64,000 nucleotides of DNA from Zeus faber. Its lineage: Eukaryota; Chordata; Actinopteri; Zeiformes; Zeidae. Of this stretch, positions 21,601 through 39,600 are shown piece by piece. The DNA is taken from NCBI GenBank assembly GCA_960531495.1, contig OY482851.1:7577714-7641713 (forward strand). Reading direction: 5' to 3'. The notes below the pieces were generated by a model. The model searched no databases. It had not been told where the DNA came from and saw nothing but the letters and a program-made list of their open reading frames with translations. A program made the translations under genes and the position numbers. The first letter of the stretch is position 1. Each line of letters opens with the position of its first letter.

Positions 21601-24600
21601 TGTAGATCATTAATTATAATTAATTATAAACTACATATGATTTAAATTCTATAGAATCGTACTGTGTTGATTTTAGATTTTGTGACATTATATTGTTCGT
21701 AGGTAAAGATTGAAAGGCACAAGAAAGGACTTGCAGAGGAGACTAGAGGGAAGTGGATACCACACTCAGACCACAATACTTAAAAGTGGAATCAACACTG
21801 CATGGAAGGAAGGAGAAGGGTAGGGCTACAGGTTCTCTTCTACAACAGCATGATAAGTGACCAGAACATTTATCATGTCAATTGTACTAGCCTTTTTGTG
21901 GATTCCTTCTTCAGCATGGCCTTTGGCTGCTCAGTGTTCTGATCTGCAGTGTGTATTTCAGGAGGGGTGTCCTCACCCTCATCTACCTGCGGTGGCGTGA
22001 CTTGAACATGGGATTTGTCAAAACTTTCCGCCAGGGACACTGCCTCAGAGGGGAATCCGGATTTTGCTGACTGGGCCAACGTGTCACAGCTTCCAGTTTT
22101 GGAAGTTTCAGTTGGGCCCTCTGTGTCACTTGCATCCGCACTGCCAGTCGCATCAGAGCCGAGAGAACGTTTCTCTTCCTCCGGTTGAGCAATCTCGTCT
22201 GTGGGTTTCAGTATACTTGGCTGAGGTTGGATCGTGACTACGGGTGTAGGAGACTCAGGTTTTGTACAGTCAGAACCGCCGAACATAGATCCGAGTTTCA
22301 TTCCAAACACAGAGGCAGCTGATGGTTCCTCCTTTCTGACTGGCTTGTCGTCCTGAAATATACCAACCGAGAGACTTTTGAACCCAGAGAAGATACCGCC
22401 GTCTGACTGTGGTGTCGCTGCTGTTTTTGCAGCAGGGATTGAGGAGGAAGCAGAGGAGAAGAGGGATCCAAAGGACGAGGCACTATCAGCTGCTCCTGAC
22501 ATGAAGGCAAGCTTGGTACCAGCCAGACCCGGTATATCAAACGCGCCTTTGGGTTCTGCGGCAGAAGCGGGTTCAGCTTTGTCCGTTGCTTTAGAATCCT
22601 CCAAAATTAAAACTTTATCACTAAGTGCTGCTTCTGGGTCGGGCGATGCAGCTCCCTCCACAAGCTTAGTCACAGAAAATTCCTCTGCCTCCGTTTTGTC
22701 TGGACGTTCTGCCTCTTCCAATAAACCTTTTTCAGGCACCTCAGATTCCTGACTAATCCCAACATATTTTTCATCAGAGGAAGCTGCATTCTCAGTGTCT
22801 GCTTTTACATTATCTTCAGGAGCTGTTTCCTTTGCAGGAGAATCTGTGTGATCCCTTTGCCCAATCTCAGTTATGATCTGTTGAGGCTCTTCTGATTTAC
22901 TTGTCTCTGGCCCTCTGAATATGCCAAACAAGTCACTAGTCAGGGATTCTGTGGGAAGGCCACTTGAAAGGCCAAAAAATGAGCTTTTCTGCTGTTGCTG
23001 CGGCTGACCAGTTGGGCGAGGAGCAGGTGATGATCCAAAGAAGGAACCTGGTGAGCTTGAGAAAAAACCCCCACTAGTTGCTGTCTTGCTTGGGGCACTA
23101 GGTGCAGAAAACATAGACATGAAGCCTGAGAATGGAGCTGGTTCTGGTGGCTTCTGAGGACCTGGCTGCCGTTGTCCTGCCATTCTTGGGCCTCCCATTC
23201 TTGGTCCGGCCATTCTTGGCCCGCCCATTCTAGGTCCTGCCATTCTTTGTCCTTGTGAACCAGGGGGCCTAGCAATGCCTTGTCCAGGTGGCTGATATTG
23301 TGGGGGCGGCCCAGTGAGCCCAATTGGAGGATCAGTCGGAGGGCCCACAGCTTGAGATTTTCCAATATCTAGTGGTTGGGTGACAACTGCTATCTCCTTG
23401 ACGGTTGATGTGACCGCTTCAGAGAGTTTGTCTTGTGAAGTGTACTTGTTGCCATCTACAACATCTGAAGTTTCACTGGTATTTTTTTCTGACATTGGGT
23501 GACTTGGTTCTGTGGTAGAAAAAGCCTCTGGCTCAGAAGCTGGTGTCAAAGACTTCTCAACAGGTTTCTCAGGTTCTTCATCCGCCGCCTGTTCATCAAT
23601 ATCATCAATCTGAGTTTCCTCAATGGGTTGACCTGCTTCTATATCTGTTGTCTCTACTTCAGGAGCAGTTTCCACAGCTTGATCTTTAACCACACCGGAT
23701 TCAAAGTTTGCGTCTGGATCATCTGCTCTTCTTTCTGGAATCATTTTGTCTACATCTTCTGGCACTTCTGTTGCCTCACGGGATATAGGGTCAACTGTTT
23801 CAGACCTTTCACAAGTGCTCTCAGTTGCCAAAAACAGCTCTTCTTTTTCAGAGGTCAGTTCATTAGTCTCCACTATTTCTTTTTTTTCCTCTGGTTCTAC
23901 AGCATACTCAGAGTCTCCCACAACCTCAGGTTTCAATGTTAGCGACTCTTCAAAGCATTTCCTTTCTGACAGCTCATTTGTCTCCTTTAGTACATCTTCA
24001 TCAATAACTTTGGCTGGTATTGAGGCCTGTTCTGAAGACATAAGGTTTTCTAATTGTGTGTTATTCCTTGTCTCTGTCTCTTTTGGAGAATCAGTTGATA
24101 GAACTGCACTTTCAGTTTCTTTCTCTCTAATTTCCAAAACGGAGTCTTGAGCATCACCACGTTCCTGGTCGGCTTGGAGTGGTTCTTCGGCTGACAATGA
24201 AGGTGCGGGCTTGGAAGGTACAACTTCAATTTCCTGTGTTTCAGTACGCTGATCAATATGCTGTATTTCACTAGCTTTTACATCATCTGAAATGTCGCTC
24301 GTTTCGGAAATTGTTACTTTCTCAGGAGAAATGTCCTCTTTTACAGGAGCAATGATGTCTGACTTTGTTTCAGCTGTTTTTTTGTCTTCCATGAAGGACA
24401 TTCCAAAAAGCCCAAAACCAGTTTTAGGTTTGCTTTCATCAGAGCCTCCTTCAAGTGAGAACACTGAGGGTATTTTAAAAAGACCTTCTGAATCCAAAGG
24501 TTTAGAGTCCACTGTTTGTACTGCTGATGCTGGTTGGCTTTTACTGCTAAACATAGAGAAGAGTCCTTTTCCTGTTGACTCTAAGGCTCTAGGTTCAGGT

Positions 24601-36600: not shown

Positions 36601-39600
36601 ATTTCCTCCTCTTTAACAGCTAGGTACTCAGACACTGAGTGAACCAAGTTTTGTAGTTCACCCATGGCATCGACATATTCATCGCTGGGCTCCTCCACTG
36701 GAGATAGCAGGGGATCTTGTCCACAGCCTGCTCTCCCCCTATTAAAACATCCCTGCCCTCCATACCTGCTGGGATAGTAGTAGCTCTCAAAGTCATAAGT
36801 GGCATCACCTTCAATAAAAGTCAGATCATCTAGCTCTTCCTCAGATCCAAAGGAGTACTGCATCTCATCGGAGCCAACTGAGCTATACTCACTCCTTGCC
36901 CTGATCCGTGCAGCTTCCTCCTTGGCAGCCTCCTCTTTCTGATAGGCTGCGTAGTTCTCGAGCGTGCCCTCCACTGCAGTTTTGGCCCAAAGCCTAGTCT
37001 TGTATAGGAGCCCCTCTCCATCACTCTGCCGTCGGAGCTGCTTAATAGAGGGAATTATGTCGATTTCAGGAGGGGACAATTCGTCCTCAAAGCTTCCCGC
37101 TTCCTTGTAAACCAAACGCACCTCCCCGCTGCCAAAGCCAGGCCCACTTCCCCTAGCGTCCTCCAGGGTCTCTGTGTGCTCAGGAGACAGTGCATCACAT
37201 TCCACGGTCTGATAAAATCTGCTACTTTTGGACTCACTAGGGCTGTCGCTGATGCGATAGATTATACTTTTGTCATTATCCTCCCATGTCTTCTGCTCTG
37301 CGTCCAAGTAGTCATCCAGGATAACAGAGTCAGGCACTTTATACTTATTCTCCCAATCCTCCACACCCATACCAGAGTCAACAGGGATTATTCGGATCCC
37401 GCCCTTCCTCTCTGACCGTCTGGGCTCATGCAGAAAACAATACAAGCGGCATGCAGGAAGGAGATGGAAATGATGCAAAGAGATTAAAAAAAAAAAAAGG
37501 CATGTTAGAAAAACAGACTGGATGCAAGTGAAAAATAACGGAATAAGAAAACAAATCAGCATGCACCTGAAAGTAAAGACCGAACATAAACTTGCAAAAC
37601 TAAAACATGAAAGTGTTTCCAAATAAATGGGTATTTATATCGAAAGAAATGTGTCCGTAATATGTAGTGAGAATACATTTAAATCATATATATGAAATAT
37701 TAAATATTAAATAACACACTTATTAACAGAGAGGACTTAGAATTTATATTTGATTGAAAACTGTGATTTTCCATCAACTGAGAGGCCTCTGAACATCACA
37801 TCTAGATCCTGCTGTGTCTGTCAAGTCCAGAAACATAAAGCCAATGGAATTTTTCAGAAACGAGCAGAGTATTAAAAAAAACATCAAATAAGAAGCTGTG
37901 TCACTCCTGGCAACCAGACTCCTTACAGCCTTGCTCTTTGACTAAGAGCTTAAATGAACAAATCAAAAGCGTTTCAGGAGCCAAGGTGAAGCGTATTTGG
38001 TTCAGCCAAATGGGAAAATGCATTAGCAACCCCTCGAGAGCCGTTAGATAGCCAAGCCTATAATCCCATTTCTGCTGTCACATTAGTGAGAACAAGGGGA
38101 AATGCCTACAATATTTAGTCCGAGTGCTTAAGCAGTACGATTGTTGTTACAGAAAGAAAATGAATTTGGCATGTGCGTTTACATGTTTGTTTTGAGTATT
38201 TGTTTGTGTATGTTCACGATAGATCAGTACGTTTAGGTTAAATATTGTGCCCATCTGTTATGCTTTTGTATATCTGTGCGTTTGTGTGCCAATGTGCATG
38301 TTTTTTTTAGAGTGCTATGTGTATGTTTCGGAGTACGTACCCGGATACACATTGTACGTGACCGTGCATAATGAGCTTATGTGTTACTGTGGCTGCAAAC
38401 ATTTGGATGTGTTACTGCGGGTTTACCTGCCCCCTCTCATCTCCCTGTAGTCCAGCTCGTAGCTCTGTACTGAGTCAGACTCTCTGTACAAGGCCTCATG
38501 CTGCGGCCTGCGGCCGATGGGATACTGGTGCACAGAGGAGTTGGTCTGCGACGTGTTGTGGTAGCGGGGCGGTCTGTTACCCGTCTCGCTGCGGTAGTCG
38601 CTGTCACGGTCATCAACTGCACTGTCGTGGTCGTCCAGAGCTGCGAGGGAAAACCGCTAAAAGATCAGCCAAACAGGCTGTCTGTCACCCTGGTGTTATA
38701 AAAATGTCAGAAACAAAATTGCTCGTTTCTTGCCAATACACATCCCTAATTAACAATGGTAGTGTTTCTGCTACAATGCCCAATTCTTTGTTCAATTTGT
38801 TAAAAAAAAGAATAGAAAATAATAAAATATCAAATAATTACAAAATAAAAGCAAAATAAAGTGTTTAAAAGTCCTCATTGCAACACACAATATACACAAT
38901 TTATTGGCAGCCCTTATGTAAGGAGCAGTTTCACATTGCAAACTGGGTGTGTAAACACAGAGGACCAAATAAACACAAATGGCTTGGAGAAATCTCCGGG
39001 TATAAAATCCTGCATTCATCAATTATCCTTGATAATGCGATTAGAGACTCATTTCCTTCCCCATCAGGGACTGGTGCCTGTCTCACACAACAAATCAGTA
39101 GATTGGAAGTATCTGCTGGAAGGACTGTCAAACTCCACTAATAGCCCAAGCAAGTGATCTATTTATACTGTATGCATTCAGCATCTCTACTGCTGGCAGC
39201 TCCCGACTGATGCCACATTCTTTTTCTTAATGTTGAGCCTGAAAATGCAATCCATCAAAACTAGATGTAGAAAACTATTCAATGTTCTCCTGCACTAAAG
39301 GCAGATTACTTGGATTACATTGAAATCTCTGAAATAAAACACCAAGTTACCTTGAATGCATACTTGATTGGTATAGGGAATTAAAAAAAACTAGCCTATA
39401 GCTCCCTCTTGTGGTAAAAAAAAAAGATAGTGCAAATAATTAAAAAACATTTGATATTGATTTTTTTTAACAATGCACCTCCAAAAGTCAAACAAAAATA
39501 TTTCTGCAAGAAGAAGCCATGCTGCTATTTGGGGCGTGCAGACTTTGAAAGAAAAATGCAAAATAGAGCAACAGAACCGATGAGTGACAAGAAAGCATCA

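Follow-up and report, generated by a model that had tools for sequence, protein, structure and literature searches.

How does a protein of synaptic vesicle priming come to carry a single coding exon of 15.5 kb, and what might such an exon do? This question is raised by the unc13b locus of Zeus faber, which we examined in 64,000 nucleotides of contig OY482851.1 (assembly GCA_960531495.1, forward-strand positions 7,577,714 to 7,641,713; hereafter the window). The gene concerned is unc13ba, the fish orthologue of Munc13-2, and the frame in question is a real giant coding exon of unc13b. We consider it rather probable, judging from its conserved motifs, that this exon docks C2A-containing Munc13-2 on scaffolds of the CtBP family, above all RIBEYE.

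A giant in-frame cassette exon in unc13ba

Read from the sequence, the giant exon occupies positions 37419..21892 of the minus strand and comprises 15,528 nucleotides, a multiple of three. It holds 5,175 whole codons plus a split codon at each end, with phase 2 on both sides. Owing to this length and the matching phases, it can be skipped or included in frame. The acceptor reads GAGCCCAG/ACGG and the donor CACAAAAAG/GCTAGTAC, the exon end being AAAAG. The upstream exon ends in phase 2 at 38427 (GGCAG/GTAAAC) and the following one starts at 18967 (CAACAG/TCCGGC); the direct join between these two is open in frame, as are both joins of the giant exon. The underlying minus-strand frame extends over 5,253 codons from stop to stop (37634 to 21873), 5,181 of them between acceptor and TGA, and is the only frame of at least 300 codons in the window. 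The remaining five frames contain 156 to 451 stops over the giant-exon stretch, and 20 shuffles yielded longest frames of 108 to 180 codons.

An initial sequence-only reading had described a single uninterrupted giant frame in phase with the upstream donor, and had placed it in unc13b after the C2A region and before the calmodulin helix. The frame and its phase hold, the latter with respect to the downstream neighbor as well, and the flanking exons bear out the location. The proposed span of 21873..37419 is correct at its start and needs revision at its end, since the true end at 21892 lies 19 nucleotides earlier and 21873 is the end of an in-frame TGA inside the following intron. A GT donor at 21977, implied by the suggested transcript mapping, has to be discarded: it would leave 15,443 nucleotides, not a multiple of three, and an in-frame stop after the join.

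Giant UNC13B models from sharks to mammals

The same reading had mentioned giant UNC13B isoforms as annotated in other vertebrates, and databases indeed contain such models: mammals, birds, reptiles, a frog, and sharks are represented, as are gar and both teleost duplicates. A search with window residues 1-3400 gave 211 matches, and every named relative among the 120 matches listed is a fish. Gar residues 1-230 combined with a length filter gave 197 matches, the 120 listed including frog, turtle, lizards, birds, wallaby, placental mammals, and shark, and the shark core gave 48, those with names being UNC13B, uncharacterized, or hypothetical. As the giant isoform is already annotated, the exon of the window is a further member and not new in itself; it is a known yet, as far as literature searches reach, unstudied annotation. 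Within the same reach, the PxDLS cassette and the GC-donor imprint described below are new.

The exon could be excised from 65 of 121 proteins, window included, and falls into two length types. The long type, to which the window belongs, measures about 4,110 to 5,660 residues and is named unc13ba where named, whereas the short type of about 3,070 to 3,530 residues is named unc13bb where named. Frames of ~3,000 codons and more occur in many species. In teleosts, ~5,000 codons in unc13ba compare with ~3,300 in unc13bb, and unc13ba has an expanded motif array. Annotated protein sizes are 7,131 residues for zebrafish unc13ba, 4,768 for gar, 4,343 for orangutan, and 4,432 for rabbit; mammalian giant proteins total only about 4,300-4,400 residues, unlike the longer teleost unc13ba. 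All share gene, exon, core, and P-x-D-L-S motifs with the window, and most also share a K/S-P junction at the exon end.

Mean identity to the window is 0.36 across 28 long-type relatives, with conserved blocks of 0.6 to 0.75 at the exon start, near residue 620, near 1570-1610, and in an aromatic core at 1815-1915. Pairwise alignments to the window cover about 182-337 and 1793-2136 in tetrapods (in wallaby also 4804-4898), and 5-72, 236-281, 1820-2011, and 4282-4389 in shark. By profile, the core is present in all 209 proteins tested, and for 89 of these the retrieval had relied solely on C2A and length. Of five AlphaFold2 models of the core, built on 26 sequences, the best contains a helix and three strands, with predicted local distance difference test (pLDDT) values of 83-86 over residues 21-50 of the modelled piece and 65 for the whole of it, while three others reached only 42 to 45. 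Fold comparison returned no convincing match.

PxDLS-type motifs bracket the aromatic core

RIBEYE is a ribbon protein derived from CtBP2, and the pocket that accepts PxDLS ligands is common to CtBP1, CtBP2, and RIBEYE. The conserved core of the giant exon is flanked by motifs of this type in a general layout of P-[MIL]-D-L-S before the core, and P-L-D-L-S followed by P-L-D-F-S after it. Turtle and eagle read LPMDLSYSSG ... KPLDLSVALQR ... QPLDFSGYKLQ, orangutan LPIDLSSSSD ... DPLDLSLALPR ... QPLDFSGYNRQ, gar GPIDLSCC ... APLDLSVAFKK ... EPLDFSTYRLQ, and shark MPIDLSSTGS ... EPLDLSVVLEE ... EPLDFTSKHS. In the window, the first motif is followed by AMDLS at residue 1803, and its counterparts before the core are PMDLS or PIDLS in tetrapods, gar, and shark.

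Downstream of the core, 204 of 209 proteins have a match to P[LIVMFE][DN][LF][ST], the first such match being PLDLS in 128 and having Asn in place of Asp in 22; the other five are misses. When Asp was required, a motif lay 40-170 residues past the core in 193 of the 196 proteins that matched the core pattern, these being drawn from 230 proteins including the window. The pattern P[LIVM]D[LF][ST] occurs 50 times in 18 representatives, whereas altered versions of it (reversed, Glu, Asn, Ala/Gly, Gln/Glu, and two shifted) occur 0, 1, 4, 1, 0, 0, and 0 times; such counts come from related rows and are not independent. Orangutan, eagle, shark, and gar each have exactly three strict motifs in the whole protein, all within ~190 residues around the core, and none of 1000 shuffles reached three. 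The window exon contains 18 occurrences of the broader motif (shuffle mean 0.9, maximum 4). Their Asp is 0.81 identical across the 28 relatives compared with 0.32 for the 232 other Asp residues, a value not equalled in 10,000 random draws. The sequence-only reading knew of no function for the region; this motif evidence suggests one.

The short-type unc13bb proteins P0066 and P0192 retain a giant exon of ~3,300 codons with the core and a single strict PxDLS motif. A division of labor between the duplicates is therefore suggested.

Parallels exist among active-zone proteins. PXDLS motifs that address the B-domain of RIBEYE are reported for Bassoon as well as for Piccolo/Piccolino (PMC11242772), and Bassoon is, like the giant UNC13B, a very large presynaptic protein, a scaffold reported to bind RIBEYE through PXDLS. 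Piccolino likewise is a very large active-zone protein that combines PxDLS-type RIBEYE motifs with a segment of the amphipathic lipid packing sensor (ALPS) type; it differs in being encoded by a separate gene, whereas in UNC13B a single cassette exon supplies the arm of a priming protein, with putative RIBEYE binding and ribbon expression. The giant exon of 480-kDa ankyrin G is comparable as an unusually long exon that enlarges a modular neuronal protein (PMC5135030), although in another gene and with other partners.

Hydrophobic segments in the linker

Besides the motifs, the P/Q-rich linker contains short hydrophobic segments of the GxLSGLF type, 13 in the window compared with a mean of 0.004 in 500 shuffles, and these are 0.74 identical as opposed to 0.39 in their flanks. 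Piccolino binds vesicle-like liposomes via an ALPS helix (PMC13394108). We scanned helical moments with thresholds of our own setting, which the published values for the Piccolo peptide would clear, and counted 3 ALPS-like regions in orangutan and gar, 5 in eagle, 6 in wallaby, frog, and zebrafish, 7 in an unc13bb, and 8 in Genypterus. A possible contact of the hydrophobic segments with vesicle membranes is suggested by these patterns, less strongly than docking is by the motifs.

A GC donor and its read-through imprint

The intron after the giant exon is of the GC-AG class (AAAAG/GCTAGTAC ... CAACAG/TCCGG), and the K/S junction of annotated relatives points to use of this GC donor: a K/S join needs the AG at the exon end and the first T of the next exon. 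In a first set, the junction ...K/S-P-V-[DE]-S or one near it occurs in 21 of 29 models with a locatable next exon, and over all 229 proteins a K/S join is found in 84 of the 106 models showing the downstream exon.

If this donor is not spliced, translation continues into the intron, and AG/GCNNGT reads as Arg-(Leu, Pro or Gln)-Val. Such an imprint, R[LPQ]V within 14 residues of the C-terminus, is present in 69 of the 229 database proteins (Leu 52, Pro 16, Gln 1), and the same imprint ends 50 of 121 proteins scanned, namely the 120 listed relatives and the window. Carriers include teleosts of both duplicate types, sharks (NVKRPV), lizards, birds (NEKRLV), and mammals, among them the musk deer (SKRPVLN). 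Pro and Gln codons start with C, Leu codons with C or T; a GC donor therefore follows for 17 relatives if they are spliced here, and the other 52 are compatible with one. In the same place, a donor of the standard form (GTAAGT or GTGAGT) would read as an immediate stop. These endings suggest that sharks through mammals have retained a non-standard donor. An enrichment of GC donors among alternatively spliced genes has been reported (PMC2490688). In the window, the stop codon comes after 16 intron bases past the giant exon, and a possible poly(A) signal sits 471 nucleotides beyond it.

Proposed function and alternative explanations

On the most economical reading of these features, the exon would equip Munc13-2 with a RIBEYE/CtBP handle of its own. 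We infer RIBEYE/CtBP binding, membrane contact, use at ribbons, and regulated splicing. The P-x-D-L-S motifs bracketing the aromatic core would form the docking part, which in the long unc13ba type would have grown into an array, 18 motifs strong in the window, and the S/G-rich hydrophobic repeats may also contact the membranes of vesicles, in the manner of Piccolino's ALPS helix. With a GC donor, the exit splice would be weak. Where this donor is used, it would yield a priming protein of ~6,700 residues that matches the Genypterus relative in size and has the arm between C2A and C1/MUN; where unused, a few intron codons would be followed by the end of a C2A-plus-arm protein devoid of priming domains. 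This shortened form would parallel Piccolino, the ribbon-specific Piccolo variant in which unspliced intron 5/6 introduces a stop and sites for Bassoon, Munc13, and others are lost (PMC3735604); the two layouts would share a shortened C-terminus when the intron is kept.

We take ubMunc13-2 to be the C2A form of Munc13-2 and therefore the form that the giant exon interrupts. Retinal ribbon synapses are without Munc13-1 and use ubMunc13-2 (PMC7660176, PMC11536687). In the mouse, Unc13b transcripts include an otherwise unspecified photoreceptor-specific exon, and this inclusion is lost when Msi1 is missing (PMC7948980).

Several observations weigh against the proposed reading. Among the 18 representatives, strict motifs are missing from eel (P0064) and from herring unc13ba (P0036), each of the two unc13bb has one, and the second site of the frog, PLDLA, lacks the Ser. 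The window motif at residue 3677 is conserved in none of the 28 relatives, and most of the expanded motifs in the window are LDMS/VDFT variants, putative as CtBP ligands. ALPS-like regions are modest in the window (4, shuffle mean 0.73, maximum 3), and the 2 of the shark are inside its own shuffle range (maximum 3). No K/S junction is found in 22 of the 106 models with a downstream exon, which show other or garbled joins. Loss of Munc13-2 is described as having little or mild effect on mouse photoreceptor transmission (PMC7660176), and Munc13 appears absent from inner hair cell active zones (PMC7699581). Neither the giant exon nor contact between Munc13 and CtBP was the subject of any paper listed in our literature searches.

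The motifs could instead bind CtBP1 or CtBP2 at conventional active zones or elsewhere, in which case nothing about the giant isoform would be ribbon-specific. The motif evidence cannot separate these partners from RIBEYE, given their common pocket; the exon, however, belongs to C2A-containing Munc13-2, which is the form that has been reported from ribbons of the retina, and we hold this alternative to be rather unlikely. Alternatively, the exon might mainly encode a long disordered arm or a condensate scaffold, with the hydrophobic repeats as stickers and D-L-S serving another partner. Its composition (S 13%, P 10%, Q 8%), the absence of any Pfam family at cut-off in the giant exon protein, the 13 GxLSGLF-type segments, and low-confidence models outside the small core fit such an arm, whereas the strong and old constraint on P-x-D-L-S itself and the near absence of altered patterns do not; we deem it unlikely.

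The exon might also be mainly 3'-terminal, the GC donor being rarely used and the chief product being C2A plus the arm without priming domains. Models with C2A, no C1, and a read-through end number 12 of 209, from eel, rockfish, herring, loach, killifish, catfish, three birds, two lizards, and shark (one of them, P0057, has a tail of 32 residues); two further C2A-plus-arm models ending in read-through residues come from gecko (P0221) and hamster (P0229), all such short forms being predicted gene models. These endings and the AATAAA past the stop agree with a terminal exon. C2A and C1 are, however, both present in 102 of the 209 models, the K/S join is frequent, and a terminal exon would have no need of symmetrical phases, which makes this explanation very improbable. 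That the frame arose by chance or as an artefact of gene models, which are predictions, is in our view refuted by the short frames of the shuffles, the frames of ~3,000 codons and more in many species, and the conserved blocks reaching back to sharks.

Gene context and other features of the window

Searches of the window by tblastn with three relatives placed the C2A exons and the linker upstream of the giant exon, in order and on the same strand. Full-length Genypterus unc13ba matched upstream exons at 60226-60122, 47858-47733, 46663-46538, 42154-42050, 41056-40997, and 38650-38426, and downstream exons at 18969-18661 and 15614-15525, these coordinates being tblastn limits. The last of these is presumably the exon encoding the calmodulin-binding region. 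Many relatives with the giant exon do have C1, C2B, MUN, and C2C domains; no exon for any of these was found by tblastn in the 64-kb window, and unc13ba therefore appears to run off it. Likewise, tblastn detected no unc13ba exon in positions 1-15524, the last 15.5 kb in gene direction, so that the intron past the calmodulin-region exon seems to measure at least 15.5 kb; it could be the site of an alternative first exon of the brain form. Frames listed in this part look like low complexity or chance. Long CT/GT microsatellites at 1556-2287 and 4084-4833 give rise to spurious frames that are 224-249 codons long and have a high content of Leu-Ser or Thr-His/Cys-Val.

The intron past the giant exon contains a UnaL2 3' element of a long interspersed nuclear element (Rfam RF00436, 58.6 bits) at 20469-20522 on the minus strand, which lies at the end of an apparent tRNA-derived short interspersed nuclear element at about 20680-20490. 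Within the giant exon, the two modules of the expansion zone repeat three to six times, the second lying ~40-45 residues past the first, and none of the short-type proteins scanned showed the SVG module. Feature coordinates are collected in Table 1.

Table 1 Features of unc13ba in the window, in gene direction (residues are those of the giant exon)
Feature	Positions	Strand	Basis or remark
Upstream linker exon	38427..38640	-	tblastn with P0010 and P0044, sequence
Giant cassette exon	21892..37419	-	Frame, phase, homologues
Conserved N-terminal block, residues 10-225	36744..37391	-	0.64-0.72 identity per 50-residue window, 28 unc13ba-type relatives
13 hydrophobic segments G-[LMF][LF]-S-G-[LIF][LF] in P/Q-rich linker, residues 706-1496	32931..35303	-	Pattern count
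First PxDLS-type motif, PMDLT, residue 1796	32019..32033	-	Sequence
Aromatic core ending CGFK, residues 1818-1916	31671..31967	-	Profile
Second PxDLS-type motif, PMDLT in window and PLDLS in 128 of 209 relatives, residue 1934	31605..31619	-	Sequence
Third PxDLS-type motif, PVDFT in window, residue 1970	31497..31511	-	PLDFS in aligned tetrapods
Expansion zone, residues 2576-3113	28080..29693	-	Modules APANS[IV]K...LDMS and SVGV[AP]L[VI]V[ED]
Further strict motifs PMDFS (3179), PVDFT (3205)	27792..27884	-	Sequence
C-terminal GLFSMFGG modules, residues 4055-4238	24705..25256	-	Sequence, comparison with relatives
Predicted GC 5' splice site, first intron bases GCTAGTAC	21884..21891	-	Sequence, K/S junction in relatives
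In-frame TGA reached without GC-donor use	21873..21875	-	Product would end ...KRLVQLT
AATAAA, possible poly(A) signal of unspliced form	21396..21401	-	Consensus match
Next exon, in-phase join to giant and upstream exons	18662..18967	-	tblastn, sequence
Calmodulin-region exon	15525..15614	-	tblastn

Implications for Munc13-2 and ribbon synapses

The placement of priming proteins at ribbon synapses is an open question on which the giant exon bears, and so is whether Piccolino is the only vesicle tether there, a point raised explicitly by a 2026 paper on Piccolino. Going beyond docking, we tentatively raise the possibility that UNC13B is a second Piccolino: a giant Munc13-2 of jawed vertebrates that would dock to RIBEYE by an ancient PxDLS cassette, hold vesicles by ALPS-like segments, and exist in two forms set by the GC donor. 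If so, the form with MUN would put priming on the ribbon itself and the form without it would be a pure tether. Giant Munc13-2 could then be a source of Munc13 for ribbons whose Piccolino no longer contacts Munc13, and it could persist in knock-outs limited to the priming exons.

The giant exon contributes a larger part of the protein than all the rest of Munc13-2 combined and is common to sharks through mammals, and its conserved motif trio makes its role testable. The reference form of UNC13B has 1,591 residues; work on UNC13B confined to this form may miss most of the coding sequence.

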